From IMG/VR virus record IMGVR_UViG_3300035670_008251, positions 1 to 38,416 of that record: 38,416 nt of DNA. One strand, 5' to 3'. How positions within the stretch are numbered: the stretch's first letter is position 1; each line of letters begins with the position of its first letter. Both the position numbers and the translations under genes were made by a program. This document shows, piece by piece, positions 6,940 through 25,267 of this stretch. Below the pieces are notes generated by a model. It did no database searches and was not told the DNA's origin. It was given only the letters and a program-made list of their open reading frames with translations. This DNA comes from a virus.

Positions 6940-7148
6940 AATTAAAAAATCCTAATCCTCTATTTTTGATTTTTAGCTATAGGAAACAAAAAAATGATTT
7001 TTAACCAGTAAACATGGGCTTTTCCTATTTTCCTATTTTCCTATCTTTTTATAAAATAAAATAAATATATAATATATATATATAAAGGGTTTGAACTAAA
7101 TGTAGAACAAAATAGAATAGAACAAAAAAATAATTGTCCGGTTAATTG
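6940..7148. other. divergent AT-rich intergenic region, candidate replication origin
   Basis: No gene lies in the 302 bases between 6901 and 7204. The stretch holds three tandem TTTTCCTA units (about 7019-7044), a TA-only run (about 7055-7085) and two AGAACAAAA units (about 7102-7130). Direct repeats beside a melting region and immediately upstream of the helicase gene are the layout of an origin. This is an inference. Confidence 0.35.
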
Positions 7149-7203: not shown

Positions 7204-8643
7204 ATGAAAAGTTTAGACGATATTAAATATATCAACAGCGAAGAAGAGTTTGATCAAGCATTAGAATTAATGCAACAAAGTAATTTTTTAATTAATTTAG
7301 AAGGAAAAGCTTTCGTTTTAGTTGTTGAAAATAATGGTAAAATTATTTTGACAGAGCCTCAAAGTTTTAAATTGCTTTATAAATATTTAAAATATACAAC
7401 CCCAATAATTAATACAACAAGATTTCTTACAAAATATGTTTCTTATGAATTTCTTGAGTCTCCAAAAACAAAAAGATTAAATGAATTAGTTTTTGATCCA
7501 AAACTTCCCCCTGGTGTAAATGGTAATAAATATAATATGTGGTCTGGTTTTAAATATAAACCAAAATGGGGAGAAACAAATCTATTTCATTATCTTATTG
7601 ATGTTAATTGTAATGGGGATGCAGAGGCAGCAGAATACTTTTTAAAATACTGTGCTTTAGCTGTTCAAAAACCTTGGGTAAACCCAAGAACTGCTATTGC
7701 TATTATTGGAGATCAAGGTTCAGGAAAGGGAACTTTAATAAACGATACAATACTTAAATTAACTGAAAACTCTGTATCACTAAAAGACTTAAAGCCAATA
7801 ACTGGAGAATTTAATAATATTCTAAAAGATGCTTTTTTTGTTTGTTTAGATGAGTGTTCTTTTGGTGGAGATATAAAAGAAGCTAATTTACTTAAAACTT
7901 TTATAAGTGAAGATAGAAGATTAATTAATGAAAAATATAAAGGTTTATACACTGTAGACTCTTACACAAAAACATTTATATTATCTAACAACGATTATAT
8001 TGTTAATGTTGAAGAAACTGATCGTAGATATGTAGTTTTAAGAGCTAACAATAAATTAAGAGGTAAATTTAAATGGTTTGCCAATTATCAAAAATGGCTC
8101 AATAATGGTGGATATGAAGCAATTATGAATTATCTTCTTTATCAAGTTGATATAACTGATTTTAATCCATTAGATATACCAAAAACAGAAGAAAAAGTAG
8201 AACTTCAGCTAAGGTCAGCAGATTTACCAACAAAATTTATTCGTGAATTATTAGAGGGCATGATTAATTTTAGTGATGATATGTATAAAAACAATAGATT
8301 ATATAAAAAACCTTTATATGAAATATTTGTAGATTATTGTAAAAGGTATCATCCAAAAGCATATATACCTTCAATACACGATTTAAATAAAGTTATGACT
8401 AAAGCTTTTCAATATGATAATGATAGACCAGGTTGGAGACAATCATGGAAAGATAGGGAAGGTTATTATTATTTAATGCCAAGTATTGAGGATTATCAAG
8501 AAAAGTTTGCTAAAAATATTGTTGGTGTAGATGACTATAAAAAAATATTTACTAACCAAAAAAAGGAAATTAAAGTAGTTGAACAAGAACAAGTTGAAGA
8601 AGTTATTGAAGATATTTTTTATAAAGATAAAAAGGCAAATTAA
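7204..8643 (+). CDS. DUF5906-type replicative helicase (SF3/D5-like ATPase)
   Basis: 479 residues. It carries a Walker A loop GDQGSGKGT at 169-177, a Walker B strand FFVCLDEC at 211-218, a sensor-1 strand FILSNND at 258-264 and an arginine-finger-like ETDRRYVVL at 271-279. These motifs and their spacing match the virus-type helicase family represented by PF19263 (DUF5906) and the D5/SF3 helicases, hexameric enzymes that unwind DNA at phage and plasmid origins. The N-terminal 110 residues show no primase catalytic motif, so this is probably helicase only. First gene of a rightward operon, next to a repeat-rich intergenic region. Function in replication is well supported. The exact family is from memory. 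Confidence 0.85.
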   Translation: MKSLDDIKYINSEEEFDQALELMQQSNFLINLEGKAFVLVVENNGKIILTEPQSFKLLYKYLKYTTPIINTTRFLTKYVSYEFLESPKTKRLNELVFDPKLPPGVNGNKYNMWSGFKYKPKWGETNLFHYLIDVNCNGDAEAAEYFLKYCALAVQKPWVNPRTAIAIIGDQGSGKGTLINDTILKLTENSVSLKDLKPITGEFNNILKDAFFVCLDECSFGGDIKEANLLKTFISEDRRLINEKYKGLYTVDSYTKTFILSNNDYIVNVEETDRRYVVLRANNKLRGKFKWFANYQKWLNNGGYEAIMNYLLYQVDITDFNPLDIPKTEEKVELQLRSADLPTKFIRELLEGMINFSDDMYKNNRLYKKPLYEIFVDYCKRYHPKAYIPSIHDLNKVMTKAFQYDNDRPGWRQSWKDREGYYYLMPSIEDYQEKFAKNIVGVDDYKKIFTNQKKEIKVVEQEQVEEVIEDIFYKDKKAN

Positions 8644-9075: not shown

Positions 9076-9423
9076 ATGAAAAATATATGTGGTAATTGTG
9101 GGAGTTTAGATACTGACAAAAATAAAACAGAAGGAAGTAATAGAGGAGATTGGTTTTTAATTATCTGTTTATTAGTTTTTGCTTCTTGGTTTTTTATTCA
9201 TCCATTCTTTGCTATTTTTATTTTTATTGTTGGAATAGTGATTGTGGCTTTATTGAAACCAAGAAGAAGTTTTGTTAAATGTTCTTGCTGTAATGCTGAA
9301 AATTCTTTTATTGGAATTGATACACCAAAAGGAAAAGAATTAATAGATAAATATCATAAAGATATAGAAAAAAAAGAAATACCAACAGTAATAAAAAAAC
9401 AAACTTGGCATGGTTTATGGTAA
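9076..9423 (+). CDS. zinc-ribbon membrane protein (LITAF-like layout)
   Basis: 115 residues. The N-terminus has CGNCGS (Cys5, Cys8), followed by a long hydrophobic segment at about 28-60 (WFLIICLLVFASWFFIHPF and beyond) and then CSCC at about 73-76. Paired Cys motifs flanking a membrane-inserted hairpin recall LITAF-type zinc domains, which sit on the cytoplasmic face of a membrane. Own promoter, ribosome site TTAAGGAGATTGTT, and terminator. Function in the phage is unknown. It might act at the membrane in superinfection or host takeover (inference). Confidence 0.65.
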   Translation: MKNICGNCGSLDTDKNKTEGSNRGDWFLIICLLVFASWFFIHPFFAIFIFIVGIVIVALLKPRRSFVKCSCCNAENSFIGIDTPKGKELIDKYHKDIEKKEIPTVIKKQTWHGLW

Positions 9424-9428
9424 ATTAA

Positions 9429-9449
9429 AAAACCCCCGTTTGGGGGTTT
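9429..9449. terminator. bidirectional terminator
   Basis: AAACCCCC-gttt-GGGGGTTT followed by T-rich DNA on both sides. The stem-loop is identical to that at 10152-10171. Confidence 0.75.
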
Positions 9450-9463
9450 AGTTTTATTTATAG

Positions 9464-9516: not shown

Positions 9517-10149
9517 ATGTTAGATATTAGTTTAATTAAAAAAACTTTTTTTGAAAATGGAGATGTTATTTTTGAGTCAAATAAACAAAAGATTTATCAA
9601 ATTGAAAACTTGTTTTTAAAAGAATTAAAAGATAAAAAATATTTTGAGGTTTATAAAAATTTAGAATTATTATTTATTATTATTGATAAAGAGCAAACTG
9701 TTTATGCTAATGAATCAATCTTAGATAATTTTTTTAATATTCTAAAAAATAAACAACAACAAAAAATGTTTAAAGATAACATGAAAAAATGGAGAAAAGA
9801 AGGTATAAAAAATGATTTTATGAATGAAAGAGAAAAAGAATTGTTATTAAAAATGAGAGAAATTTTAAAAGCAAAAAATCAAAAAACTAAAATTATAAAA
9901 GAATTAGACTTAATTATGAGAACTATTTTTAATAAAAGAATGATTAAAGAAATTGAATTAAATGAAGCTGAAGCTAAAAGAAAAAAAGATGCTCAAAAAA
10001 CATTTAGGGATATAGAAAGAATGGTTGGATCTCAATCTTCTAAATATCCAAACGATACCAACATAGAAAATAAAGACCCTGAAGAAATTATGGATATATT
10101 AAACGAACTTGATCATATGTTTGAAAATAGTGAAGAGAATGAAAATTAA
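9517..10149 (+). CDS. charged coiled-coil protein, unknown
   Basis: 210 residues, extremely rich in Lys, Glu, Asn and Ile, predicted mostly helical with a coiled-coil stretch at about 95-170 (NEREKELLLKMREILKAK) and an acidic C-terminus. It has its own promoter and a strong ribosome site (TTAGGAGATTATT). It ends against the relaxase gene, the two being convergent and separated by a shared terminator. No family recognised. A replication or relaxosome accessory role is possible from position only. Confidence 0.6.
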   Translation: MLDISLIKKTFFENGDVIFESNKQKIYQIENLFLKELKDKKYFEVYKNLELLFIIIDKEQTVYANESILDNFFNILKNKQQQKMFKDNMKKWRKEGIKNDFMNEREKELLLKMREILKAKNQKTKIIKELDLIMRTIFNKRMIKEIELNEAEAKRKKDAQKTFRDIERMVGSQSSKYPNDTNIENKDPEEIMDILNELDHMFENSEENEN

Positions 10150-10151
10150 AA

Positions 10152-10171
10152 AAACCCCCGTTTGGGGGTTT
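10152..10171. terminator. bidirectional terminator between convergent genes
   Basis: AAACCCCC-gttt-GGGGGTTT between gene 9517-10149 and the end of the relaxase gene. T-tracts occur on both strands. Confidence 0.8.
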
Positions 10172-10176
10172 AATTT

Positions 10177-12339
10177 TTAGATAGTATTATCTTGATTGTT
10201 TTGATTTTTGAGCCTCTTTTCTTCTTCCTTAATTTGCTCTCCAAGTTGTTGAATCATTAAATTAATTTTGGCCTTTTCTTCTTCGCTAACATCTGGGTCA
10301 GTCAATTTATTTTGTAATAAACCTAATTCCATTTTCATAGAATCTAAACTTGTATGATCTGGAAGTTTAACATTAAAAGTTTTTTCATGTTTAGTTATAT
10401 CGTGATTAAAAATATCAGCAATAAGAGTAATGTTTTCTTTATCTCCTTTTGTTTTTTCAATATTAATTTTATAAATAACACCATTAACATTATTTAGATT
10501 ATTAAAGAAATATTTATCAATATTTTTACTTTCTTTATAAATATCTTCTCTATTAAAATTAGGTTTCCATTGACGAGTTTTTCCATCATAGTCAACAAGA
10601 TTTTTTGATTTAATAACCTTTAAAAGTTTATCAGCTTTTATGCCAGTATATTGTTCTTGCTCATATAGTTTTGCTTCTAAATGAGACATATTTACAGCAC
10701 CCTTTTTAGTAGCTTGAATGATATAAAACTTTTCTGGATTAATGTAATTTCTTTTTATGAATTTAGTCATATTAACTTCATCAACATTCATTTTGATTGA
10801 TTCAATATAATTTTGAGTAAGTCCAACTTTTTCAGCATCCTTTTGCCATTCTTTAAATAACTCAAAGCTGTCCCATTCTTGTTTTCTTTCCCTGGTGCTT
10901 AGTGATATAAGTTTTTTAATTTTATAAGAACTGTTATCGCCAGCAAGATGATTAATCTTGTTTGCTCTTCTGCTAAACATTTCTCTTTGTTCTTTAGTAA
11001 TACCAACCACAGAAAAAGAATTAACATATTCTCCTTTTTTGCTATCTTCATTCTCTAAAAACTCTTTTGAAAATTCAGTGGTAAATCCTAATTTTTCTCT
11101 CAAGCCGTTAGCTAATTCTTTTCTAAAAAATGCTCCAATTTTCTTTTGTTCATCTGTTAATAATTTAGTATCAACAGCAATCCATTTTCCATTATCGTCC
11201 AATGCTTTTTTCATAATAAGTATATGAGTATGAAGTTGAGGGTCGGGTCTTTCTCCATCAACTGGTCTTGAAGTATTATGGTCGTAAGCTAACATTACTG
11301 GCTTAACTGATATTTGTTTTCTTGCTAATTTAGAACCTCTTATTTTTTCTTTAATTTCAGTATCTAACTTAATAGGATTTTTTGTTTCATCAACAGGAAT
11401 ACCATTAAAAACATTTTCAAAAGATTGTTTGATAGCGTTAGGAATAGTTTCTTGTTTTCCATCCCAAATTCTTGAAAAATGATTATAGACATCTTTCATA
11501 TCTTGCTTATCAATTCTTTTAGAATTAATTAATGTTTCTTCAATTTTTTTAGAAGTATTTATAATAGCTTCTTTATATATTTGATCATAAATATTTTTGT
11601 TTTGCTTATCAAATATTGATAATAAAGTAAAATCTTTTGGAGCAGAAAGACAAGCATCAGTTCCAAGATTTTTTTCTGGATCTTTAAAGTATCTTTCTCT
11701 AATAGTTTTCTTTTCTTTATCTGTTAATTTATGTTTAGTTTTTTCATCAGTAATAACAAAATTTTGGTCTAAAAGTTTTTTAGATTTATTAATAGCTGAG
11801 TTTAAATAAATATAATTTCCATTCCAATTAATCTCTAAATAATTAAATATTTTTTGGATATCTTTTTCATCATATTGTCTTTTAACTAAATACTTTTCTT
11901 TGATATTTAATTTATCTTCTTTTGATAATTTAATTTTAATTTCTTTAGCATCAATTGGAGCATTTTCTTCAAAATCTTTTTTAGATTTAATAAGAGCATC
12001 TTTTAATTTTTCTTTATCTCCATCCCAATTAATTTCTAAATATTCAAAGATTTTTTTAATATCTTTTTCTTTTAATTTTTTATTTTCAGTTACTTCAAAA
12101 AGTTTCTTATTGGTAATAGGATGATAACCTTTAGATAATCTCTCCAATCCATTTTCTGGAATATCAGTTTTACTTTCGTATCTTCCAGTCATTAGCTGTA
12201 ATGATTCGTCCATAGAACCACTTCCTAAAAAGTATGTATTAACAGAATCTTCCTTATGATATTCTTTAGAATTTTCTTTTACCTTCTTGCCATCATTCTT
12301 ATGATAATTGGCACTTCTTATTTTTGATATAGTTAGCAT
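10177..12339 (-). CDS. MobF/TrwC-type relaxase with three inserted repeat modules
   Basis: 720 residues from the ATG at 12339, chosen because AAGGAGAAGAAA precedes it and the protein then begins MLTISKIRSANY as relaxases of this family do. Family signature: LSAPKDFTLLSIF at about 231-243, then HNTSR (354-358) and DPQLHTHILIM (366-376) carrying the metal-binding histidine triad, then GKWIAVDTKLLTDEQ and FSVVGITKEQREMFSRR. N-terminal tyrosines (residues 12, 27, 36) are candidate nucleophiles that would join to the nicked strand. No RecD-type helicase motifs follow, so this is a short relaxase. Three copies of a roughly 60-residue module (W-D/N-G core) interrupt the catalytic domain. Its role is plasmid mobilisation or rolling-circle-type initiation (inference). 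Confidence 0.85.
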   Translation of the reverse strand: MLTISKIRSANYHKNDGKKVKENSKEYHKEDSVNTYFLGSGSMDESLQLMTGRYESKTDIPENGLERLSKGYHPITNKKLFEVTENKKLKEKDIKKIFEYLEINWDGDKEKLKDALIKSKKDFEENAPIDAKEIKIKLSKEDKLNIKEKYLVKRQYDEKDIQKIFNYLEINWNGNYIYLNSAINKSKKLLDQNFVITDEKTKHKLTDKEKKTIRERYFKDPEKNLGTDACLSAPKDFTLLSIFDKQNKNIYDQIYKEAIINTSKKIEETLINSKRIDKQDMKDVYNHFSRIWDGKQETIPNAIKQSFENVFNGIPVDETKNPIKLDTEIKEKIRGSKLARKQISVKPVMLAYDHNTSRPVDGERPDPQLHTHILIMKKALDDNGKWIAVDTKLLTDEQKKIGAFFRKELANGLREKLGFTTEFSKEFLENEDSKKGEYVNSFSVVGITKEQREMFSRRANKINHLAGDNSSYKIKKLISLSTRERKQEWDSFELFKEWQKDAEKVGLTQNYIESIKMNVDEVNMTKFIKRNYINPEKFYIIQATKKGAVNMSHLEAKLYEQEQYTGIKADKLLKVIKSKNLVDYDGKTRQWKPNFNREDIYKESKNIDKYFFNNLNNVNGVIYKINIEKTKGDKENITLIADIFNHDITKHEKTFNVKLPDHTSLDSMKMELGLLQNKLTDPDVSEEEKAKINLMIQQLGEQIKEEEKRLKNQNNQDNTI
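11326..11502 (-). repeat. relaxase insert module, copy 3
   Basis: Encodes residues 280-338, DMKDVYNHFSRIWDG ... NAIKQSFENVFNG. The most diverged copy. It lies just before the histidine-triad segment. Confidence 0.6.
11686..11862 (-). repeat. relaxase insert module, copy 2
   Basis: Encodes residues 160-218, DIQKIFNYLEINWNG ... AINKSKKLLDQN. Directly precedes the LSAPKDF segment. Confidence 0.7.
11881..12063 (-). repeat. relaxase insert module, copy 1
   Basis: Encodes residues 93-153, DIKKIFEYLEINWDG ... ALIKSKKDFEEN. Eleven of the first fifteen residues are identical to copy 2. Confidence 0.7.
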
Positions 12340-12371: not shown

Positions 12372-12389
12372 TACCCAAGCAATTGGGTA
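12372..12389. repeat. inverted repeat, candidate oriT element
   Basis: Perfect 7-bp inverted repeat TACCCAA-gcaa-TTGGGTA, 33 bases before the relaxase start and followed by a G run. A small inverted repeat next to the relaxase gene is the usual position of a relaxase recognition hairpin. No nick site can be assigned. Confidence 0.4.
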
Positions 12390-12428
12390 GTAAGGTATGG
12401 GGGGGATTTTTCTTCCGTCCTTACAAAT

Positions 12429-12457
12429 AATTAAAGCAAATCAAAAAAAGAAGTCAA
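12429..12457 (-). promoter_or_regulatory. possible relaxase promoter
   Basis: TTGACT with a 17-bp spacer and a poor -10 (TTAATT). The weak -10 fits a tightly controlled gene. Uncertain. Confidence 0.35.
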
Positions 12458-12515
12458 ATATTTTGCTATATTTTTTAATTGGTCTTTATAAACTCAATAA
12501 AATTAGGGGTCGTTT

Positions 12516-12571
12516 TTGGGTAGTATATTTATAGTTTTTGGGTAGTATGCAGTAAATGGGTAGTATATTTA
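12516..12571 (+). repeat. iteron-like direct repeats TGGGTAGTA
   Basis: Copies at 12517-12525, 12539-12547 and 12557-12565, with starts 22 and 18 bases apart. Two extend to TGGGTAGTATATTTA. A fourth TGGGTAGTA is at 12384-12392 inside the inverted repeat by the relaxase start. The 386-base gap between 12339 and 12726 holds no gene. It contains these repeats, a possible relaxase promoter and, at its right end, the promoter of the GIY-YIG gene. Confidence 0.6.
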
Positions 12572-12690
12572 CACTTTTTTGATATTATATTGATTTTTTC
12601 AATAGTCAAATTGGTGTTATTTCAGCTATATATTAGGTAAAAATGTTACTCTTACAAAAAAAAGTGTACATAGTAACGGGGTAAGATTTA

Positions 12691-12718
12691 TTGCCAATTT
12701 TCTAATTTACAATATAAT
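12691..12718 (+). promoter_or_regulatory. promoter of GIY-YIG gene, leaderless
   Basis: TTGCCA, 16-bp spacer ATTTTCTAATTTACAA, TATAAT. The -10 ends seven bases before the ATG. The spacer is the dispersed 12-bp motif. Confidence 0.7.
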
Positions 12719-12725
12719 CATTTTT

Positions 12726-13130
12726 ATGTGGTTATATAATAAAGAAGAATTAAAAGACGAAAATATTCCAACGGATGCTATTGGTTTTATCTATTTGATT
12801 ACCAATATGACTAATGGCAGGATGTATGTTGGAAAAAAACTTTTAACCAAAGCTGGAACAAAACAGGTCAATGGTAAGAAGAAAAAAATCAGGAAAGAAA
12901 GTGATTGGAGAGATTATTATTCATCAAGTCCTGAATTAAAAGCAGATGTAAGTTTACTGGGAAAAGACAAATTTAGAAGAGAGATTTTATACTTCTCTTT
13001 CTCGTTAGCTGTTCATAATTATCTTGAAGAAAAAGAACAATTTATGCGAGGAGTTTTAGAAAAAGACCTATACTATAACTCAAATATTAGAGCAAAAATA
13101 TTCAAGAAAAACATTATTGGGAAGATTTAA
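12726..13130 (+). CDS. GIY-YIG endonuclease
   Basis: 134 residues. The motif GFIYLITNMTNGRMYVGKK at 20-38 gives the GIY half (G20-F-I-Y23) and the YIG half (Y34-V-G36) of a GIY-YIG nuclease. A later glutamate in YLEEKEQFM is a candidate metal ligand. Small stand-alone enzymes of this type in phages are homing or Seg-like endonucleases, or act in packaging. It stands alone on the plus strand between the relaxase and the lysis block and overlaps the end of the convergent lipoprotein gene by 17 bases. Probably a mobile free-standing endonuclease. The promoter predicts a leaderless mRNA and no ribosome site is visible. Confidence 0.8.
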   Translation: MWLYNKEELKDENIPTDAIGFIYLITNMTNGRMYVGKKLLTKAGTKQVNGKKKKIRKESDWRDYYSSSPELKADVSLLGKDKFRREILYFSFSLAVHNYLEEKEQFMRGVLEKDLYYNSNIRAKIFKKNIIGKI

Positions 13131-13356
13131 TAAAGTCTTTTTTGGCTTTATTTTGATTTTTACACAGCTCAAAAATCTTCTTATTTTCAACAAATTTATT
13201 TAATATTTCTTCAAAACTTCCATCTTTTGGAATCAAATAATCTTCACAATCAAGCATAATTTCTGGTGCTGGACTGACAGATTTTTGATAAATAATTGGA
13301 GATTTAGAAGCACAACCCGCAATAAAAAAAATGATAATGGCAATTAGAATTTTCAT
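13114..13356 (-). CDS. outer-membrane spanin lipoprotein (Rz1/LysC-like)
   Basis: 80 residues from ATG 13356, which overlaps the previous stop as ATGA. The N-terminus MKILIAIIIFFIAGCASKS is a lipoprotein signal with lipobox IAGC. The mature part is short, Pro-containing, then LDCEDYLIPKDGSFEEIL ... FELCKNQNKAKKD. The two-cysteine pattern with a C-terminal helix matches the LysC group of Rz1-like o-spanins. It would sit in the outer membrane and bind the inner spanin across the periplasm to fuse membranes at lysis. The i-spanin candidate is at 14148-14504. Confidence 0.75.
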   Translation of the reverse strand: MKILIAIIIFFIAGCASKSPIIYQKSVSPAPEIMLDCEDYLIPKDGSFEEILNKFVENKKIFELCKNQNKAKKDFIKSSQ

Positions 13357-13556
13357 ATTTTCATTATCCAATTTTCTAATTTACAATCTTTTTTAGATAA
13401 CTTTCTTTCAAGTTTTCTTGCTTCCCATTTAGTTAAAATTATCTTTCTTACTTGTTTTTGAAAACTAATATCTTCACTATAAAATAAATCATAATATTGT
13501 GTATATCGTCTTTGGTCTTTTATCATTATGCTTATAAATTTATTTACATCTATCAT
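13353..13556 (-). CDS. hypothetical small basic protein
   Basis: 67 residues, strongly basic, begins MIDVNKFISIMIKDQRRY and contains KIILTKWEARKLERKLSKK, a likely amphipathic basic helix. Its C-terminus CKLENWIMKI is encoded by the dispersed motif that also ends gene 14501-14869. Coupled to the o-spanin by an ATGA overlap. Function unknown. Confidence 0.6.
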   Translation of the reverse strand: MIDVNKFISIMIKDQRRYTQYYDLFYSEDISFQKQVRKIILTKWEARKLERKLSKKDCKLENWIMKI

Positions 13557-13557
13557 T

Positions 13558-13776
13558 TTATTTTCTCAAATATTTTTGAAAATCAACCATTATATCTGTT
13601 TTACCTAAACACGGACTTTTTATAAAAGTTATTGTTGTAACTTCATTTTTTGGTAAACTATTTAATATCTCTTCGGTATATAAACTTAAATGATTACCAG
13701 TCCAAGGATAGATATTGTAAATAATTTTATTGAGTTTCAATTTTCTAATTGCCACTCTTCTTTGATGTGAGTTCAT
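13558..13776 (-). CDS. hypothetical small protein
   Basis: 72 residues, begins MNSHQRRVAIRKLKLNKIIY. The codons for VAIRKL are a copy of the dispersed motif. The start overlaps the stop of the upstream gene by four bases (ATGA). No recognisable domain. It lies in the lysis operon but nothing in its sequence (no signal, no membrane segment) shows a lysis role. Confidence 0.6.
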   Translation of the reverse strand: MNSHQRRVAIRKLKLNKIIYNIYPWTGNHLSLYTEEILNSLPKNEVTTITFIKSPCLGKTDIMVDFQKYLRK

Positions 13777-14096
13777 AATTTATTATCTCTCCAAACCTTA
13801 AAATATTTTAATTCTCTTGATCCCTTATTGCCTAAATAAACAGATTTTCCTTTGATTCTAAATTGTAATTTTGAACAATCTGCTGTCTGTTCTTTTATAA
13901 TTTCCCCATCTTTTAAAATCATATATTTCCAAATTAAATTATTTCTAAAATATTCTTTGGCTTCTTTATAAGACATTTTTCCATCTTCTTTTTTACCAAC
14001 CTCTTCAAATAAACCATCAATAACTTCTTGAATATTCCAGCTATATTCAATTTGATTTAATACTTTTTTAAATGGGTTGTATGTTTTCTTTTTCAT
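13773..14096 (-). CDS. hypothetical protein
   Basis: 107 residues, basic, begins MKKKTYNPFKKVLNQIEYSW. The second half looks like a small beta domain (LQFRIKGKSVYLGNKGSRELKYFKVW). Own promoter (14123-14151), ribosome site ATAAGGAGCAAATT. First of four overlapping genes ending with the o-spanin. No family recognised. Confidence 0.65.
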   Translation of the reverse strand: MKKKTYNPFKKVLNQIEYSWNIQEVIDGLFEEVGKKEDGKMSYKEAKEYFRNNLIWKYMILKDGEIIKEQTADCSKLQFRIKGKSVYLGNKGSRELKYFKVWRDNKL

Positions 14097-14122
14097 AATT
14101 TGCTCCTTATTTGTATTGATAA

Positions 14123-14151
14123 ATTGTAATGCAAATTAGAAAATTCGTCAA
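14123..14151 (-). promoter_or_regulatory. promoter with motif in spacer
   Basis: TTGACG, 17-bp spacer AATTTTCTAATTTGCAT, TACAAT. The spacer carries an exact copy of the 12-bp dispersed motif, so a protein bound there would block RNA polymerase. Confidence 0.65.
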
Positions 14152-14504
14152 TGTATCTCCCCCAATATTTCCACAAACTTTGTATAATCTTCATCAGTTA
14201 ATTTACAATTTTTATACTCAATTTTAGTAACAATCTTTTCAACTTCTTTAATTTTATCTTTATAAATTGTTTTAATTTCAACATCTTTTTTGATAGATTT
14301 TTCAGCTAAATTATCAGTCAATTTTTTAATTTTAAGATTATTTTCTTCAATTATTTTTAATTGTTCTTGCTCCAATTTTAGATATTTTAGTTCAGCTTTA
14401 TCATATCCTATTGAATAGATTTTATAAACTAAAAGACTGGCAATTAGAAAAATCAATATATATTTTAGATAATTATTTTTGATTAAAGTGAGTATAAAAT
14501 TCAT
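14148..14504 (-). CDS. inner-membrane spanin (Rz-like)
   Basis: 118 residues from ATG 14504, which overlaps the previous stop as ATGA. A single N-terminal membrane anchor (YLKYILIFLIASLLVYKIY, about 12-30) is followed by a Lys/Glu-rich periplasmic coiled coil (about 35-90) and a C-terminal segment NCKLTDEDYTKFVEILGEI typical of Rz-like i-spanins. It would join the outer-membrane lipoprotein at 13114-13356 to disrupt the outer membrane. Unlike lambda Rz/Rz1, the partner is not embedded in this gene but lies about 0.8 kb further on. Confidence 0.8.
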   Translation of the reverse strand: MNFILTLIKNNYLKYILIFLIASLLVYKIYSIGYDKAELKYLKLEQEQLKIIEENNLKIKKLTDNLAEKSIKKDVEIKTIYKDKIKEVEKIVTKIEYKNCKLTDEDYTKFVEILGEIH

Positions 14505-14869
14505 ATTTTTAGTTTCCAATTTTCTAATTTACAATCAGGTAAAGTATACTCTAATTGTTCTTTTAAGTAAACTTTTCGCTCATTGTTAAGATGGGCTAAA
14601 AACTCTTGCTGTGGTATAATATCACTATCAGGAAACTCACAATTAAAACCATTTAAAACATTTTGATTTTTAAACTTATAGACATATTTAATATAGTGAA
14701 TATCATAATCATAAACTACTTTATAAACTACAAAATCAAGATAAGTTTCATCAGTTAGGGCTACTGGATAACTTGTCTCAATAAAGTTTAAAACATCTTC
14801 AAGCAGTATACTGGCAATTAGAATTTTGCCATCATGTATCTGTTGGATAACTTCATTTCTGGTTAGCAT
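14501..14869 (-). CDS. hypothetical protein in lysis operon
   Basis: 122 residues, begins MLTRNEVIQQIHDGKILIAS. Rich in Tyr, Val and Asp with alternating strands (YLDFVVYKVVYDYDIHYIKY). The C-terminus CKLENWKLKI shares its DNA with the dispersed motif and nearly repeats the end of gene 13353-13556. It overlaps the preceding small gene by 17 bases and the i-spanin by four. Function unknown. Confidence 0.65.
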   Translation of the reverse strand: MLTRNEVIQQIHDGKILIASILLEDVLNFIETSYPVALTDETYLDFVVYKVVYDYDIHYIKYVYKFKNQNVLNGFNCEFPDSDIIPQQEFLAHLNNERKVYLKEQLEYTLPDCKLENWKLKI

Positions 14870-15020
14870 ATACTTCTTTAATATATAAATCTAACTCTTC
14901 TTTTGTTTTAATTTCTTCTGGAATAACTATACCTCTTTGAAGAAAAAAAGGCTTTACTTTTTCAATATCAAAGTCTGGTAATTCTCCAAATATTTGGCTT
15001 AAACTTACTTTTGCTCGCAT
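14853..15020 (-). CDS. hypothetical 55-residue protein
   Basis: Begins MRAKVSLSQIFGELPDFD and ends KEELDLYIKEVYANQK. Acidic, no membrane segment. Start follows TTGGAGTTAATCA. It overlaps the next gene by 17 bases. Fills the gap between the holin and gene 14501-14869. No family recognised. Confidence 0.55.
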   Translation of the reverse strand: MRAKVSLSQIFGELPDFDIEKVKPFFLQRGIVIPEEIKTKEELDLYIKEVYANQK

Positions 15021-15023
15021 TGA

Positions 15024-15086
15024 TTAACTCCAAAATGTAAAAAAGAAAATTGGACTAAACAGAACAATAAACATTAAATAACTCAT
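15024..15086 (-). CDS. 20-residue membrane peptide in lysis cassette
   Basis: MSYLMFIVLFSPIFFFTFWS, wholly hydrophobic. The ATG overlaps the holin stop (ATGA) and is preceded by a strong AAAAGGAGAAAAAA site, so translation is likely. It could modulate the holin or be a minimal second holin (inference). Confidence 0.45.
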   Translation of the reverse strand: MSYLMFIVLFSPIFFFTFWS

Positions 15087-15277
15087 TTTTTTCTCCTTTT
15101 AATAGATTCAGTTGTAATAGTTCTCAACCAGAAATTTATCGCAGTTGTAATGATAACAATATACATATATTTATCTTGGCTTGTCTCTTTAATGAAATCA
15201 TAATTAGCTTCTAATACAGTTAATATTGCTATAATAAAATTTATCCAGATTGTTTTTGATTTATACCATTTTTTCAT
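15083..15277 (-). CDS. holin
   Basis: 64 residues with two membrane segments (about 9-24 and 38-54) separated by a short polar loop and a basic C-terminus (KRRKK). The N-terminus KKWYKSKTIWINFIIAIL is typical of small phage holins. It overlaps the endolysin gene by four bases. It would form the inner-membrane hole that times release of the endolysin. Confidence 0.75.
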   Translation of the reverse strand: MKKWYKSKTIWINFIIAILTVLEANYDFIKETSQDKYMYIVIITTAINFWLRTITTESIKRRKK

Positions 15278-15669
15278 TTATATTTACTCCTATCTATTTG
15301 GAAGTGAACACCATCTTTGAAAGTTTTCCAATCGCCACCCCATACTATATCATAACCTAAATCTTTGGCTGCTTGTTTGATAATATCAGCCAGTTTTTTA
15401 TAATCTTTTAAGTTCCATGTTATCTTGCCATTTAAGAACAGGGCAACATCTATGGCATGACCAGTTATATGATAGCTGTCTAATGTTTGTGATTTCTTTT
15501 CGGCTAAAAGTTGTTTTTGTCTTTCTAATGTTCTTACTCCCTCTGTAACAACAAAATAAGACTCTTCATTATATTTGGTGTTAAATATCTCAACTGATTT
15601 TTCAACAATCTCAATCAATACATTATTAACACCTTTTAGATTATTCTTGCTTCTTTGATTCAGTTCCAT
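15274..15669 (-). CDS. M15-family endolysin (L-alanyl-D-glutamate peptidase type)
   Basis: 131 residues. Zinc ligands are visible as H67 and D74 in SYHITGHAID and H122 in DGVHFQID. R46 in the VRTLERQKQLL stretch corresponds to the conserved arginine, and WGGDW at 110-114 is the family signature before the last histidine. This is the VanY/T5-endolysin type fold that cuts peptide cross-bridges in peptidoglycan. No signal peptide or cell-wall-binding domain, so export depends on the holin beside it. The start (GAGAAGAAAA before ATG) lies 29 bases inside the methyltransferase gene. Confidence 0.9.
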   Translation of the reverse strand: MELNQRSKNNLKGVNNVLIEIVEKSVEIFNTKYNEESYFVVTEGVRTLERQKQLLAEKKSQTLDSYHITGHAIDVALFLNGKITWNLKDYKKLADIIKQAAKDLGYDIVWGGDWKTFKDGVHFQIDRSKYK

Positions 15670-17197
15670 TTTTCTTCTCTATTTCAAATTCAATTCTTGC
15701 TTTACTTATATCTAAATATTCCTGTGATAAGTCTATTCCAATATAATCAAAACCCTCTCTCGCACAAGCCTTTCCTGTTGAACCACTACCATTGAAAGGG
15801 TCAAGGACTGTTCCATTTGGTGGTGTGACTAATCTAACAAGATATGCCATAAGGTCTGTTGGTTTTACAGTTGGATGATTATTTTGATTTTTTGCGGGAA
15901 GTATCCAAGTGTTATCTTCACAATCGCAAGGGGTTAATTGTGAAGTGCCACATTTATCGCAAACTCTACCCAAGCCGTTTCCTTTATCGCTACTGATTGC
16001 CTTTAATTCAAAACTATCTAAACCCTCATTTCTATCTTTCTTACTTGCTTTGGCACAATAAAAATATCTGCTTGCTGAACCACTATCATCAAAGCCTGTT
16101 CTTTGTATTTCTTTGAGTCCTAATTCAATAGTATTATCATCTGGAAATTTACCACCCCTTTTGTTTTTTTCTGTTGGTGTTGTTGATTTAGTATTAGGGA
16201 AAACTGACTCAACCTCTTCACTTCCATCGTGAATTATATTAGCCGGGAATCTCCCTTGTGTTGGATTAAATTCAGTTCTTTTTGATATTGAACCATAATT
16301 ATGTTCAATAGTATTTTCATATTTTTCTTTATCTGCTCTTCTTTTTGGAATATCTTCACTACTTCCAACCCTACATCCATCTATATTTAATGCACCAACA
16401 CCCCACTTCAAAACATTTTCAGCAACAGTTTTTTCACTCATTGGCTTTCTTGCTAATACCATAGGCTCATGGGCTGGTTTGAGAGCTGTTCCAAAACCTT
16501 GCCATTGTTTTGCTTGTGGTGTTGATGGTGCTGTGATGTCAACCTCTATTGCTTTTGAACTTCCAATAGTATGTCTATCTTTTTCTTCTTTGTTTGCAAT
16601 TCCTGTTGTTTTTTTACCAATAACTTCTCTTTCGGCCTCAACTCTATTAACAATTTCATTTATATAATCAGGTATTTCTACTTTAATATGTAGCTTAATT
16701 AATTCCCACAACTCTAATGTTGGAACTGCTGGCTGTTCTTTTGCTGTTAAATAATGAGAACCCATAAATGTATTAGTGATTTTATTTAATTCACTTGCTT
16801 TCAATCCTGTCGTTCTCATCCACTCAGTAAATTTTTCTTTATCTCCAACTCTTCCGTTTGTTTTATCAATCGCTTTACTAACATCTAATGATTTTGGAAA
16901 TCCTGAACCATACATCCATAATACTTGGTCACGAATTTCAAACCCAGCATCTTCAATAGCCACTGCCATTCTATGATAAGTTCTTGAACCACTAAAGGCA
17001 ATTAAATGACCACCTGGCTTTAATACTCTTAATGCTTCTTTCCATAATTCAACATTAAAAGCAATGCCTGTGCTATCCCATTTTTTACCCATGAAGCCAA
17101 GTTCATAAGGCGGGTCTGTGACTATACTATCTACTGAACAATCATCTAAATCTTTTAATTTTTCTAAACTATCGCCACATAATAATAAATAATTCAT
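15641..17197 (-). CDS. DNA adenine-N6/cytosine-N4 methyltransferase
   Basis: 518 residues. Catalytic DPPY at 28-31 comes first, and the SAM-binding DPFNGSGSTG at 466-475 last, the order of beta-class enzymes of PF01555. HPTVKP (441-446) precedes it as usual. Two insertions stand out: residues about 110-195, helical, and a zinc-knuckle-like CDKC...CDC at 413-426. Large, non-fused phage methyltransferases of this kind protect phage DNA from host restriction. It follows two tRNAs on the same transcript (ribosome site TTAAGGAAAATG region) and precedes the endolysin. A matching nuclease might be the PD-(D/E)XK-like gene at 18735-19400. Confidence 0.88.
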   Translation of the reverse strand: MNYLLLCGDSLEKLKDLDDCSVDSIVTDPPYELGFMGKKWDSTGIAFNVELWKEALRVLKPGGHLIAFSGSRTYHRMAVAIEDAGFEIRDQVLWMYGSGFPKSLDVSKAIDKTNGRVGDKEKFTEWMRTTGLKASELNKITNTFMGSHYLTAKEQPAVPTLELWELIKLHIKVEIPDYINEIVNRVEAEREVIGKKTTGIANKEEKDRHTIGSSKAIEVDITAPSTPQAKQWQGFGTALKPAHEPMVLARKPMSEKTVAENVLKWGVGALNIDGCRVGSSEDIPKRRADKEKYENTIEHNYGSISKRTEFNPTQGRFPANIIHDGSEEVESVFPNTKSTTPTEKNKRGGKFPDDNTIELGLKEIQRTGFDDSGSASRYFYCAKASKKDRNEGLDSFELKAISSDKGNGLGRVCDKCGTSQLTPCDCEDNTWILPAKNQNNHPTVKPTDLMAYLVRLVTPPNGTVLDPFNGSGSTGKACAREGFDYIGIDLSQEYLDISKARIEFEIEKKNGTESKKQE

Positions 17198-17221
17198 AAA
17201 TTCATTTTCCTTAATGTTAAT

Positions 17222-17297
17222 TGGTGCTGGCTGTAGGACTTGAACCCACCACCCTCAGATTACAAAACTGATGCTCTACCAGATGAGCTAAGCCAGC
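17222..17297 (-). tRNA. tRNA-Thr (UGU)
   Basis: 76 bases on the minus strand with a full cloverleaf: acceptor GCTGGCT/AGCCAGC, D arm, anticodon loop TTTGTAA (anticodon TGT), T arm with TTCAAGT, discriminator A and encoded CCA. One mismatch closes the anticodon stem. Overlapping reading frames here are artefacts. Confidence 0.9.
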
Positions 17298-17299
17298 AT

Positions 17300-17375
17300 T
17301 GGTGGAAGTAGTCAGGATCGAACTGACAACCTTTTGCATGCCATGCAAATGCTCCCCCAGTTGAGCTATACCCCC
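17300..17375 (-). tRNA. tRNA-Ala (GGC)
   Basis: 76 bases on the minus strand. Acceptor GGGGGTA with the G3-U70 wobble pair that marks alanine tRNAs, anticodon stem TTTGC/GCAAA, loop ATGGCAT (anticodon GGC), TTCGATC T loop, encoded CCA. Two bases from the tRNA-Thr and cotranscribed. Confidence 0.92.
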
Positions 17376-17385
17376 ATTAAAAAAC

Positions 17386-17414
17386 ATTATATAAAAATGT
17401 ATTACATTTGGCAA
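17386..17414 (-). promoter_or_regulatory. promoter of tRNA-methyltransferase-lysis operon
   Basis: TTGCCA, 17-bp spacer, TATAAT, ten bases before tRNA-Ala. The only clear promoter before tRNAs, methyltransferase and lysis genes. Confidence 0.75.
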
Positions 17415-17422
17415 ATAAAAAA

Positions 17423-17448
17423 TCCCCAGTATATTTCTACACTGGGGA
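17423..17448 (-). terminator. rho-independent terminator
   Basis: TCCCCAGT and ACTGGGGA, 8-bp stem, followed on the minus strand by TTTTTTATTT. Ends the small-gene operon before the tRNA promoter. Confidence 0.85.
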
Positions 17449-17518
17449 CTAAGACTTAGAAAGGATCAGTCTACTCAAAACTTTATTCTTATTATTATAA
17501 ATTAATTATAGATATATT

Positions 17519-17668
17519 TTATTTTTCTGTCAATTCTAACATTCTCAATCTTTGCTCTAAATCTTCCTGTCTATCTAACATAGTTTGAATTATTTTATGT
17601 TGAGCATCTAATAACTGATAAACCAATACTATATCTTTAGCAAAGAATTTTAAAAATAATGCTCTCAT
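17519..17668 (-). CDS. small coiled-coil protein, tandem paralogue B
   Basis: 49 residues, MRALFLKFFAKDIVLVYQLL then a helix ending RLRMLELTEK. Starts with an ATGA overlap with the gene before and a GGGGGAAAA site. Shares size and pattern (FF-K-DI--Y-LL-Q-I---L-R---LE-RL) with gene 17665-17808. An aromatic N-terminal helix followed by a coiled coil suggests a peripheral membrane or oligomeric protein. Confidence 0.55.
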   Translation of the reverse strand: MRALFLKFFAKDIVLVYQLLDAQHKIIQTMLDRQEDLEQRLRMLELTEK

Positions 17669-17808
17669 TTTTCCCCCAATTTCTTTTCAAGTTCAGTAAG
17701 TCTATCATTTAGGATTCTGTTAATTTCTTGTTGTTCTTCAAGCTTTCTATAAAGATTATAAATATCTTGATAAAAATGCTTCATAAACCAATGCTTAATT
17801 GTATTCAT
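17665..17808 (-). CDS. small coiled-coil protein, tandem paralogue A
   Basis: 47 residues, MNTIKHWFMKHFYQDIYNLY then KLEEQQEINRILNDRLTELE. Strong AAGGAGAAATAA ribosome site. Paralogue of the next gene, apparently by tandem duplication. Function unknown. Confidence 0.55.
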   Translation of the reverse strand: MNTIKHWFMKHFYQDIYNLYRKLEEQQEINRILNDRLTELEKKLGEK

Positions 17809-17818
17809 TTATTTCTCC

Positions 17819-17869
17819 TTAATTTAAAAACAAAAATGGGTCAAATGGATCAAAAATATATTCTATCAT
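17819..17869 (-). CDS. possible 16-residue peptide
   Basis: MIEYIFDPFDPFLFLN, start overlapping the previous stop (ATGA), stop just before the ribosome site of the next gene. It has an FDPFDP segment like the C-terminus of gene 18501-18713. Coupling is the only support. Confidence 0.3.
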   Translation of the reverse strand: MIEYIFDPFDPFLFLN

Positions 17870-18054
17870 TTTTTAATCTCTATCTTATAATTGGTTGACT
17901 TAAGATTAAATTCTAAAATGAGTAAAATACCCATAACACATAAAATAGTTTGTAGTGAGTTTTCTAAATTGATATTATCAACAAAGAATAAAATACCCCA
18001 AGCACTAATAAACTTTAAGATAAAATAAATAACAAAAGAAATAACATTAATCAT
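17866..18054 (-). CDS. two-helix membrane protein
   Basis: 62 residues with two membrane segments (about 3-24 and 33-49) and a lysine-rich C-terminus on the cytoplasmic side. Begins MINVISFVIYFILKFISAWG. Starts inside the last codons of gene 18051-18443 (ATGA) after GGGGGATGAAAGT. Small two-segment proteins in phage accessory operons may be holin-like, exclusion or superinfection-immunity factors. No family recognised. Confidence 0.6.
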   Translation of the reverse strand: MINVISFVIYFILKFISAWGILFFVDNINLENSLQTILCVMGILLILEFNLKSTNYKIEIKK

Positions 18055-18443
18055 ACTTTCATCCCCCTTGCTTGCTTTTGTTTAATTGGTAAATCTCTGC
18101 CTAATCTTTGCTGAAATAAATAAGTTTCATATTCTTTTTCTTTATGAGCAATAGCTGGAAGCATAGAGTCAAACATTTGCTTAATGATAATTGGCATCAT
18201 CGTTTTGAAAAAATCTTTATTGATAAAGTTTTGGATGTTTCTTTCTGTGAAAACATTATAGTTAGTAATTGAAGTATCATCATAAAAATGAAGGTCAATA
18301 ACTATCTTTGCTTCTGTTTCATCGTTAATAAAGAAAACACCACTTTTTTGACCTGCTGAGTTTCGGTATCTGTAAGAGTGAACATAATCATCAAGATATT
18401 GAGTTAGCTCTTGCCAGACTTCATCTGTGTTAAAATCATACAT
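18051..18443 (-). CDS. hypothetical protein
   Basis: 130 residues, begins MYDFNTDEVWQELTQYLDDY. A beta-rich middle (SGVFFINDETEAKIVIDLHF) is followed by a helical C-terminus (RLGRDLPIKQKQARGMKV). Controlled by a consensus promoter at 18468-18496 with a long leader and an AAGGAGAAATAT site. No domain recognised. Confidence 0.65.
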   Translation of the reverse strand: MYDFNTDEVWQELTQYLDDYVHSYRYRNSAGQKSGVFFINDETEAKIVIDLHFYDDTSITNYNVFTERNIQNFINKDFFKTMMPIIIKQMFDSMLPAIAHKEKEYETYLFQQRLGRDLPIKQKQARGMKV

Positions 18444-18467
18444 ATATTTCTCCTTAATAGTAGGGGA

Positions 18468-18496
18468 ATTATAGGGACATTTTAGATTTTTGTCAA
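18468..18496 (-). promoter_or_regulatory. consensus promoter, GTCCC class
   Basis: TTGACA, 17-bp spacer, TATAAT: both hexamers are perfect. The spacer ends ATGTCCC, as in the two related promoters at 1209 and 18721. Confidence 0.8.
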
Positions 18497-18500
18497 CAGA

Positions 18501-18713
18501 TTAAAAAGGTATATCAAAAGGGTCAAAATTAGCAGTAATTTCAAAGGGGTTGACCTTAGCAGGCTTAATGATAATAAGCTTTAATTCTGGTCTACTGTAT
18601 TGCCATTGCTTGGCACATTCTTGGGTTCTAAATTCACGAATACAGCCAAAGTCATCATGGAGTTGGTATCTCCATTTTAATTTATCAAGCTTTTGTTTCA
18701 TGTAATTAGTCAT
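18501..18713 (-). CDS. small protein with SSB-like C-terminal tail
   Basis: 70 residues, begins MTNYMKQKLDKLKWRYQLHD, with a compact central part (CIREFRTQECAKQWQY, LKLIIIKPAKVN) and the C-terminus ITANFDPFDIPF. The last residues (acidic, then D-I-P-F) copy the conserved tip of bacterial single-strand-binding protein, which docks RecQ, RecO, PriA, ExoI and others. It could mimic SSB to bind such proteins (inference). Its promoter places the ATG at +1, so the mRNA is probably leaderless. Confidence 0.6.
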   Translation of the reverse strand: MTNYMKQKLDKLKWRYQLHDDFGCIREFRTQECAKQWQYSRPELKLIIIKPAKVNPFEITANFDPFDIPF

Positions 18714-18720
18714 ATATTAA

Positions 18721-18748
18721 ATAATAGGGACAAATTATTGATTGTCAA
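18721..18748 (-). promoter_or_regulatory. promoter, GTCCC class, leaderless
   Basis: TTGACA, 16-bp spacer ATCAATAATTTGTCCC, TATTAT. It ends seven bases before ATG 18713. Near-copy of the promoter at 1209-1236. Confidence 0.65.
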
Positions 18749-19400
18749 TATTTTTAATAATTTCTTCTTGTTTTCTTATAAGGATTTCTTTTTGTTTGAG
18801 GTCTTGTAGTTTATCTATATTATTTTTAACTACTTTATCAATGTTGACTTTTTTATTAAGGTATTTTTCTTGCCATCTCAAATAATGCTCTGTATCTCTT
18901 TTTATACTGAATCCTAAACTGCTTTTTTCTGTGGCATGTTCTTTTATGTTGGCAACTGGTAAAGCATTTAACAGTTTACATTCTTCTATCATTTCTTCTT
19001 TAGTCAGTTCGTATAAATTATATTTAATATTGGTATAATCTTCAAAATTTACTTCTAAAATTAAATAATAATCTAAGTCTTGCCAGGGTCGTATTTGTTT
19101 ACAATTTATCGTATTGGTTTCATTATCTACAAAACTACATTTAAACTCTATATCGTGACCTAAATGGGTTTTAAAATCTCCACAATCCCAAGAGCTTGGG
19201 GTAATCTCAAAATTAAAGTGATAACAAAAATAAGCCTGTATTCTAACACCCCATATTTGAGTTGGTAAATGCCTACATCTTAAAAAGAACGGTTTGGGCA
19301 TTAAATCAAAAGCATATTGTTTATCAGTTTTGAAAGACGACTTAAGAGTATCAAATATTTGATAAATTTGTATTAAATCATCGTCCTTAAAATGTACCAT
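18735..19400 (-). CDS. PD-(D/E)XK nuclease-like protein
   Basis: 221 residues. D75, then E85-F-K87 in GDFKTHLGHDIEFKCSF, gives the D...ExK catalytic core of restriction-type nucleases. KQIRPWQDLDYYLIL at 101-115 is the downstream segment typical of this fold, followed by a Tyr/Leu strand pair and ELTKEEM. The C-terminal 50 residues are a Lys/Glu coiled coil (KQKEILIRKQEEII). It may be a restriction enzyme, a phage recombination endonuclease or a host-DNA nuclease. A methyltransferase lies 1.5 kb away. Its promoter overlaps palindromes, suggesting tight control, as needed for a toxic nuclease. Confidence 0.65.
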   Translation of the reverse strand: MVHFKDDDLIQIYQIFDTLKSSFKTDKQYAFDLMPKPFFLRCRHLPTQIWGVRIQAYFCYHFNFEITPSSWDCGDFKTHLGHDIEFKCSFVDNETNTINCKQIRPWQDLDYYLILEVNFEDYTNIKYNLYELTKEEMIEECKLLNALPVANIKEHATEKSSLGFSIKRDTEHYLRWQEKYLNKKVNIDKVVKNNIDKLQDLKQKEILIRKQEEIIKNIDNQ

Positions 19401-19432
19401 CTAACTCAAAAAAAATATGTAAGGTACATTTT
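19389..19432. repeat. 10-bp inverted repeat around the nuclease-gene start
   Basis: AAAATGTACC and GGTACATTTT, perfect over ten bases and 24 apart. One arm overlaps the -10/+1 region and the other the start codon. A 13-bp palindrome ATGTA-agg-TACAT (19417-19429) is nested at +1. Likely operators. Confidence 0.6.
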
Positions 19433-19458
19433 ATATATACAAAAGTTAATTTTGTCAA
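19430..19458 (-). promoter_or_regulatory. promoter of nuclease-like gene
   Basis: TTGACA, 17-bp spacer, TATAAA on the minus strand. Confidence 0.7.
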
Positions 19459-19476
19459 ATAGTAGAAAAAAGAAAA

Positions 19477-19499
19477 CCCCCAGTTTTTTAAGCTGAGGG
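19477..19499 (-). terminator. rho-independent terminator after XhlA-like gene
   Basis: CCCTCAG and CTGGGGG stem with a T-G wobble, followed by TTTTCTTTTTT on the minus strand. The rest of 19401-19570 carries promoter elements and, on the plus strand at 19522, a 12-codon frame after AAGGAGG that I do not count as a gene. Confidence 0.75.
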
Positions 19500-19570
19500 T
19501 ATCTTTACACTATTAAGGAGGTCATGAAAAATCATAACTGTTGGTATTGTAGGGCAATTTAAAATAAAAG

Positions 19571-19843
19571 TCAATTAAATAATTTAAGTATATAAGAAAT
19601 AACAGCAAAAACACCAACAACAGCAGAACCTATAACTGTGATAACTTTCCAACCACCTCTTTGTTTATTTAAGTATTCTTCTATTTTCTTAAAATTCTGT
19701 GAACTCTCTTTTTGCATCTCATCAAGTCTTGTCATTATAGATTTTTCAAGTTCTATAATCTTTTTTTCTAACTTAATATCGCTTTCTTTTAAGTGGTCAA
19801 CAGTTGTTTCCAGCCTTATGATTTTATCTCGTAATTCTTGCAT
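19571..19843 (-). CDS. XhlA-like coiled-coil membrane protein
   Basis: 90 residues. N-terminal coiled coil (about 1-60, ELRDKIIRLETTVDHLKE) and one C-terminal membrane segment (about 66-88, VITVIGSAVVGVFAVISYIL) preceded by RGGWK. This matches haemolysin XhlA-type phage proteins that assist holins. It has its own promoter and terminator. It could be a second holin component, or another membrane-tethered coiled coil. Confidence 0.7.
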   Translation of the reverse strand: MQELRDKIIRLETTVDHLKESDIKLEKKIIELEKSIMTRLDEMQKESSQNFKKIEEYLNKQRGGWKVITVIGSAVVGVFAVISYILKLFN

Positions 19844-19872
19844 GGTTTATCCTAAAAATATCAATTCCCATT

Positions 19873-19900
19873 ATTATAAACAATAATTTTATTTTGTAAA
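19873..19900 (-). promoter_or_regulatory. promoter of XhlA-like gene
   Basis: TTTACA, 16-bp spacer, TATAAT between the tail hub gene and 19571-19843. Confidence 0.55.
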
Positions 19901-19915
19901 AATTAAAGGGGGACA

Positions 19916-23359: not shown

Positions 23360-23362
23360 TTT

Positions 23363-23788
23363 TTAATCCTCTATGTTTTCAAATTCAAATACACTAACTA
23401 TTTTATTTTTCCATTTTTCATCTAAGTCATGTATAATAACTTTTTCAGCAGTGCTATAAGCATGAATAATTTTATTATTTGGCATATATAAAGCAAGATG
23501 CTGAGGATTTTGTAAAAACCTAAAAAGTATTATATCTCCTATTTTAATATCTGTAAAAGTCTTTTCTTTTGCTGTTCCTTGTAATAATGTTTTTCTTAAG
23601 CTAACACCGTCAGGCTTTGCTGAATAATTTTTCATATCAACAACATTACCTTTATACAATTTACATTCTTTAGCCAATTCAACAATAAAGCCAGCACAAT
23701 CTAAACCAACACCTTTTTTTCTTCCTTGATGATGAAAAGGAGTGTCTAAATATTCTAAAGCCTTTTTACATACTTCTTCTCTTATCAT
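23363..23788 (-). CDS. NlpC/P60 tail peptidase
   Basis: 141 residues. Catalytic Cys31 in GLDCAGF, His97 in PQHLALY and His109 in IIHAYS form the NlpC/P60 triad. KIGDIILF at 82-89 is another family hallmark. Such enzymes sit at the tail tip (lambda K, GTA Rcc01697 counterpart) and open peptidoglycan locally for DNA entry. It overlaps DUF2163 gene by four bases (ATGA). Confidence 0.9.
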   Translation of the reverse strand: MIREEVCKKALEYLDTPFHHQGRKKGVGLDCAGFIVELAKECKLYKGNVVDMKNYSAKPDGVSLRKTLLQGTAKEKTFTDIKIGDIILFRFLQNPQHLALYMPNNKIIHAYSTAEKVIIHDLDEKWKNKIVSVFEFENIED

Positions 23789-25205: not shown

Positions 25206-25232
25206 ATCTTGCTACCTATTTTATTTATTTTC

Positions 25233-25261: not shown

Positions 25262-25267
25262 TACAAA

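Follow-up and report, generated by a model that had tools for sequence, protein, structure and literature searches.

Relaxases are usually attributed to plasmids and integrative conjugative elements. The closest described systems are the MOBF proteins TrwC of plasmid R388 and TraI of F and pKM101, which share a fold with two tyrosine positions, an aspartate and three histidines, and whose substrates place a hairpin and then a 9-nt U-turn region before the nick. A further point of comparison are mobilisable plasmids that arose from P1-like phage-plasmids, in which a relaxase or an origin of transfer (oriT) resides on a phage-derived element; P1-like phage-plasmids are generally without relaxase and oriT, all but two of them (PMC10879196). 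Here we describe a relaxase gene of the MobF/TrwC type in the IMG/VR record IMGVR_UViG_3300035670_008251, a single linear virus record of 38,416 bases that was analysed over its full length and is called the window below. The locus has in common with TrwC and TraI the predicted fold, the catalytic positions and the order of hairpin and U-turn region, yet its protein has no helicase half, carries three inserts predicted to be three-helix domains, shows YH in place of the YY pairs and is encoded by a tailed phage. Unlike the plasmids derived from P1-like phages, the window has retained its portal and terminase genes as well as those for capsid and tail. In the literature searched, most subscription journals and all bioRxiv preprints lying outside its coverage, we found no phage described as having both a MobF gene and a nic site, and we regard the novelty of this combination as provisional.

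The relaxase gene and its phage lineage

10180..12339, minus strand: phage relaxase of the MobF/TrwC family (P0001), 720 residues, above NCBIfam and Pfam cut-offs, core matched in the AlphaFold2 model
11635..11661, minus strand: conserved D228 and SAPK motif region, residues 227-235, aligned with TrwC/TraI (TrwC D85 = D228)
11224..11280, minus strand: H354 and the HUH pair H370, H372 (HNTSR...DPQLHTH), invariant in the alignments

The open reading frame (ORF) begins with an ATG at 12339 and ends with a stop codon at 10177-10179 on the minus strand, just where an earlier, sequence-only reading of this DNA had placed it, and the signature motifs named there are all present (LSAPKDF at residues 231-237, HNTSR at 354-358, DPQLHTH at 366-372). 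The protein scores 121.3 bits against the NCBIfam MobF equivalog NF041492 (cut-off 100) and 106.9 bits against Pfam TrwC, PF08751 (cut-off 25); TIGR02686 stays below its cut-off with 66.6 bits versus 145.5. Residues Y12/Y27, D228, H354, H370 and H372 line up with the catalytic residues of TrwC and pKM101 TraI (PMC9868005). The three-histidine metal site and the catalytic aspartate of MobF relaxases are complete, and of each tyrosine pair the first member is retained, as Y12-H13 and Y27-H28.

In the full-length AlphaFold2 model much of the catalytic core has a predicted local distance difference test score (pLDDT) above 90. Residues 1-89 are badly modelled, because the alignment used consisted of C-terminal rows only, N-terminal fragments being of no help. 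The best Foldseek matches of the core are 1qx0, 1osb and 1omh, with TrwC (1qx0/1osb) at E 1e-8; the relaxase fold of the MobF family is the one predicted. A C-terminal helicase is typical of TrwC and TraI, yet the relaxase domain family does not demand one. Domain search and model gave no match to such a helicase in the 720 residues of the window protein, whose end is a helical tail, and several mobilisable MobF proteins are also short (e.g. that of locus L005). Judged from its sequence, the protein is a MobF/TrwC-type relaxase with intact catalytic residues.

The window encodes a gpA-type terminase, a lambda-type portal, a capsid fused to an S78 protease and a tail tube, along with the tail genes DUF2460, a phiJL001 Gp84-like hub, NlpC/P60 and Rcc01698-like tail-tip genes. 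Two relatives place it in a lineage. L007 (IMGVR_UViG_3300033553_000315), located through the conserved MobF motifs, holds homologues of at least six window genes in conserved order. L052 (IMGVR_UViG_3300046355_000273) was located via a syntenic gene common to the window and L007 (window 18735-19400); its DNA matches most of 12620-29376 at 92-98% identity and shorter segments of it at 81% and 89%. Given the synteny with L007 and the 81-98% identity of the L052 backbone in matching blocks, the relaxase gene belongs to the phage. The L007 relaxase resembles that of the window in its core (30-32% identity) and in the C-terminal motif EQEQY[ST]GI, but has 451 residues and none of the modules described in the next section; an integrase-like gene, identified by eye, lies shortly past it. 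In L052, immediately left of the equivalent of 12620, stands a relaxase of the same subfamily (40% identity to that of the window) which likewise has no modules and is cut by the contig end; both its N-terminal tyrosine pairs are complete.

In the collections searched, few phages carry a MobF gene. A close-relative scan of viral contigs gave no match with the intact relaxase and none with the module alone, tblastn of the relaxase found nothing in phages and distant MobF only in plasmids, and a genome scan together with 385 genomes of one class returned ordinary MobF proteins and no close relative. MT836143.1 (H53/L019), deposited as 'Bacteriophage sp.', was rejected as a relative: judged by its ORFs, it is apparently a GC-rich piece of bacterial chromosome with a MobF gene and metabolic genes. 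L018 and L055 were chance pattern matches. Among the IMG/VR contigs L008-L015 several encode full-length MobF relaxase-helicases typical of conjugative plasmids, and some of them may be plasmids filed as viruses.

Three modules in the catalytic domain

11884..12084, minus strand: module copy 1, residues 86-152, from the repeat alignment; three helices, AlphaFold2 pLDDT 89.8
11683..11883, minus strand: module copy 2, residues 153-219, in tandem with copy 1, from the repeat alignment
11323..11523, minus strand: module copy 3, residues 273-339; 0 of 2000 shuffles reach its score against copy 1 or 2

The copies align without gaps over about 67 residues, with 43% identity between copies 1 and 2 and 27% between copies 1 and 3, and nine positions are invariant in all of them (D, W, G, A, S, K, L, K, I). 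Local scores between copies are 142, 97 and 65, each matched by none of 2000 shuffles; in a comparison across the phage ORFs the between-copy scores were 142, 88 and 65, versus a best of 49 among 904 other 67-residue windows. The three repeats claimed by the sequence-only reading thus prove to be real, with limits that had been set at 93-153, 160-218 and 280-338 and are refined to those listed above. Its picture of repeated insertion into loops holds for the number of copies and needs correction for the sites, which are two, copies 1 and 2 forming a tandem pair in a single loop. This pair is 68% identical at the nucleotide level, which speaks for an old duplication and excludes an assembly artefact. 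A search of the window revealed no fourth copy and ruled out the methyltransferase insertion (15641-17197) as a further one.

The stretch from SAPK to HxxTSR spans 123 residues in the window relaxase, 66 in L052 and 62 in L007; among the further MobF loci measured it spans 60-68. Between the start codon and SAPK lie 230 residues in the window relaxase, 106 in L052 and 90 in L007. With spacings of 62 and 66 in the closest phage relatives, the modules are not core in all MobF members, an outcome that the earlier reading had held open, and appear as it proposed, as extra domains in a true MobF catalytic domain. Cutting them out lifts the local alignment score from 451 to 514 against L052 and from 316 to 426 against L007, and the module-free remainder aligns end to end with either protein. 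None of 1000 random deletions of same-size blocks beat module removal, although the best reached 511 versus 514, so that this control says little about the exact module boundaries. A MAFFT alignment with the intact protein matches module 2 to the N-terminal W.G found in other MobF proteins; it was discarded because residues 1-85 match the N termini of the relatives once the modules are removed. As read from these alignments, the modules are insertions into the catalytic domain at two sites. At site 1, L010 carries an unrelated insert of about 70 residues, and this loop therefore tolerates inserts. No other MobF protein with an insert in several copies is known to us, though a systematic MobF survey was not made.

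The modules receive low pLDDT in the full-length model, about 33-58 per ten-residue block; within this low confidence each copy shows three helices at matching offsets (about +5 to +18, +23 to +40 and +54 to +67), the second being shorter in copy 3, and there is no sign of the segments folding differently. Copy 1 modelled alone, with copies 2 and 3 as alignment, reaches a mean pLDDT of 89.8 and a predicted template modelling score of 0.76, with helices at 6-19, 24-39 and 55-66: a single confident three-helix domain is predicted. That nine shared residues and the helix pattern were kept in copies diverged to 27-43% identity suggests selection on the fold. Pfam, PHROGs, PDB sequence and fold searches and a viral fold library yielded sub-threshold matches only. 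For the fold, the PDB gave nothing with an E value of 10 or below and the viral library nothing above noise, an absence that is weak evidence, small helical domains being hard for such searches. Module relatives were absent from the phages, plasmids and viral contigs searched, and the 385 genomes of one class gave one marginal match (E 0.008).

The candidate nic site and the rest of the window

12372..12389, plus strand: hairpin TACCCAA-GCAA-TTGGGTA, putative relaxase-recognised inverted repeat
12390..12399, plus strand: putative nic region GTAAGGTAT/G, directly past the stem, predicted nick 12398/12399
12517..12524, plus strand: extra hairpin-arm copy TGGGTAGT
12539..12546, plus strand: extra hairpin-arm copy TGGGTAGT
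12557..12564, plus strand: extra hairpin-arm copy TGGGTAGT
12620, no strand: edge of L052 homology, 94.9% nucleotide identity over 12620-13127, no blastn match to its left

Immediately 3' of the 7-bp hairpin follows GTAAGGTATGGGGGGG. Because the two flanking genes are divergently oriented, one would not expect a terminator at this place. The 3' arm of the hairpin, TGGGTAGT, occurs four times in the window, all within 12384-12564, and a comparable cluster arose in 0 of 60 shuffled windows. For comparison, the F sequence GCAAAAACTTGTTTTTGCGTGGGGTGTGGTGC occurs at 100% identity in the F plasmid NC_002483.1. The R388 substrate is GCGCACCGAAAGGTGCGTATTGTCT/ATAG with nic GGTGCGTATTGTCT/A (PMC4814116, Table 1). 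The window hairpin stands 5' of the predicted nick, as in relaxase substrates, whereas the hairpins of rolling-circle Rep proteins surround the nick (PMC4814116). Most MOBF nic sequences keep G17, T18 and T23, with G21 in F and pKM101 and a purine needed past the nick (PMC4176350); the window and L007 sites have all of these. By such rules, 12372-12399 of the window has the features of a putative MOBF nic site.

Both strands of the 38 kb were scanned for GTNNKGTNT/R standing immediately after a stem of 5 bp or more. The window and L007 each contain a single such site, at 0.05 expected per shuffled 38 kb, and stems of at least 7 bp with the pattern appeared in 0 of 40 shuffles. The same scan returned six sites in 510 kb of loci, mostly MobF-containing, of which those in L031 and L038 are R388-type in look: GCACCTGGAAGGTGC GTTAGGTGT/G at L031:14303, near a MobF gene in Verticiella, and GCACCCGCCGGGTGC GTCATGTGT/G at L038:13381, near one in Bordetella ansorpii.

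The relatives have hairpins of their own. In L007, ACACCTTT-ACA-AAAGGTGT is followed by GTATGGTGTG, the nic-like GTATGGTGT/G after AAAGGTGT being close to the R388 nic, in the same position and orientation as in the window. L007 has no TGGGTAGT-type repeats; instead a perfect 20-bp inverted repeat, ATTCTTTTTCTCTCTATTTA (L007:7515-7614), surrounds the hairpin and nic-like site and overlaps the relaxase ribosome-binding region. L052 differs from the window with the hairpin ACGGGG-CTTG-CCCCGT, then GTATAGGGTGTATG, and with further copies of its own arm. Most simply, the relaxase would have been exchanged together with the origin-like region beside it, as one cassette, one of the two edges of the exchange being visible at 12620. 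That the relaxase would be active in the phage, acting at the candidate nic site, is well supported.

Elsewhere in the window, a DNA methyltransferase gene (15641-17197) has its PF01555 domain split by an insertion of roughly 250-300 residues. The gene is missing from L052, where 15648 joins 17222 almost directly, and beside this indel lie two adjacent tRNA genes, Thr (tgt) and Ala (ggc), at 17222-17375 on the minus strand. The gene at 9517-10149 is flanked by two near-identical terminator-like hairpins (9418-9460 and 10135-10180) that share the core AAACCCCCGTTTGGGGGTTTA; the latter of them separates a convergent gene pair, and its end coincides with the relaxase stop. A short TTTTCCTA tandem array (7020-7044) lies in the divergent region before a DUF5906 gene.

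What the relaxase and its modules may do

The joint explanation we consider best, with a probability of about 0.5, is that a tailed-phage lineage has a competent MobF relaxase nicking its own DNA, to which the modules add DNA or relaxosome contacts. The relaxase would nick at a nic site of MobF format lying 33-60 bp ahead of its start codon, and the nick would start rolling-circle replication of the phage (or phage-plasmid), or mobilisation via a host conjugation apparatus. A three-helix domain would have entered the loop just before the catalytic-Asp strand, doubled at that site and also gone into the loop that precedes the H354 strand. It may give the window allele added contacts with origin DNA or hold the relaxosome together, a role that is our best guess and is favoured because no ribbon-helix-helix accessory protein was detected in the window. 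TrwC Arg81 contacts the first base after the hairpin (PMC4176350). Since insertion site 1 ends about four residues before the equivalent position, modules 1-2 should lie near the hairpin base, and a contact with it or with neighbouring DNA is geometrically plausible by this analogy. The basic nicking reaction should not need the modules, given the module-less relatives. Of the partners proposed in the sequence-only reading, oriT repeats are a possibility, and nothing was found that points to the packaging machine. Among the window ORFs searched, no coupling protein, type IV secretion system gene or integrase was recognised, and we do not class the phage as a conjugative or mobilisable element, a term that calls for a coupling protein or secretion system, or for demonstrated transfer.

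Several observations weigh against this explanation. The module-less L052 also has extra arm copies, so arm repeats do not require modules, which makes a pairing between modules and TGGGTAGT repeats less likely. The positive net charges of the modules (+3, +6 and +2 for copies 1, 2 and 3), in themselves a point in favour, are small for a lysine-rich relaxase, and fold searches gave no match hinting at DNA binding. For the nic site, the GTATAGGGTGTATG after the L052 hairpin runs two bases over the consensus, leaving the strict pattern in two of the three members. The R388-like 14-mer of L007 arises somewhere in 37% of equal-length shuffles, and its value comes from standing next to the stem; the pattern was partly built from L007, so the window is an independent test and L007 is not. 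The residues by which TrwC contacts G17 (Arg81, Asp183) are not conserved in the window relaxase.

It is possible, if tentative, that the modules serve as docking sites for another protein, either a helicase (for instance the DUF5906 primase-helicase encoded in the neighbourhood) or a coupling protein, and so stand in for the missing helicase half. The window relaxase stops after the start of the region where a helicase would begin, a D5/DUF5906-type ATPase is encoded nearby at 7204-8643, L007 likewise has a P-loop protein near its relaxase, and three copies would suit multivalent docking. However, the L007 relaxase is as short (451 residues), with neither helicase half nor modules, and recruitment of a helicase need not involve them. 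We think it unlikely that the modules simply decorate permissive surface loops, being neutral or of slight use and retained as harmless: the unrelated insert of L010 shows site 1 to be permissive and the near-identical phage L052 lives without modules, but the same nine residues and helix pattern in three diverged copies suggest selection on the fold. Quite improbable is a conjugation gene recently acquired by the phage and not used, for which the lack of secretion and coupling genes in the ORFs searched and the rarity of MobF-bearing phages might speak, since one relaxase subfamily is kept at the same place in the gene order of window, L007 and L052, two of these phages having diverged to about 30-50% protein identity, with catalytic residues and nic-like sites preserved.

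Under the preferred explanation of a self-nicking phage relaxase, a phage lineage that keeps a relaxase beside a matching nic-like site could move by conjugation besides particles; alternatively, conjugation chemistry could have been turned into phage replication. A more far-reaching version is doubtful as a whole: that the lineage uses a conjugation-type relaxase and its own nic site as initiator, swaps both as a specificity cassette between near-identical phages, and has the functions that plasmids give to relaxosome accessory proteins supplied by a previously unseen, thrice-inserted domain. To build an enzyme by placing one domain three times in its catalytic core, at two separate loops, is unusual. 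The window, L052 and L007 together amount to a natural experiment: related backbones, a relaxase with or without modules, and each relaxase beside its own hairpin.
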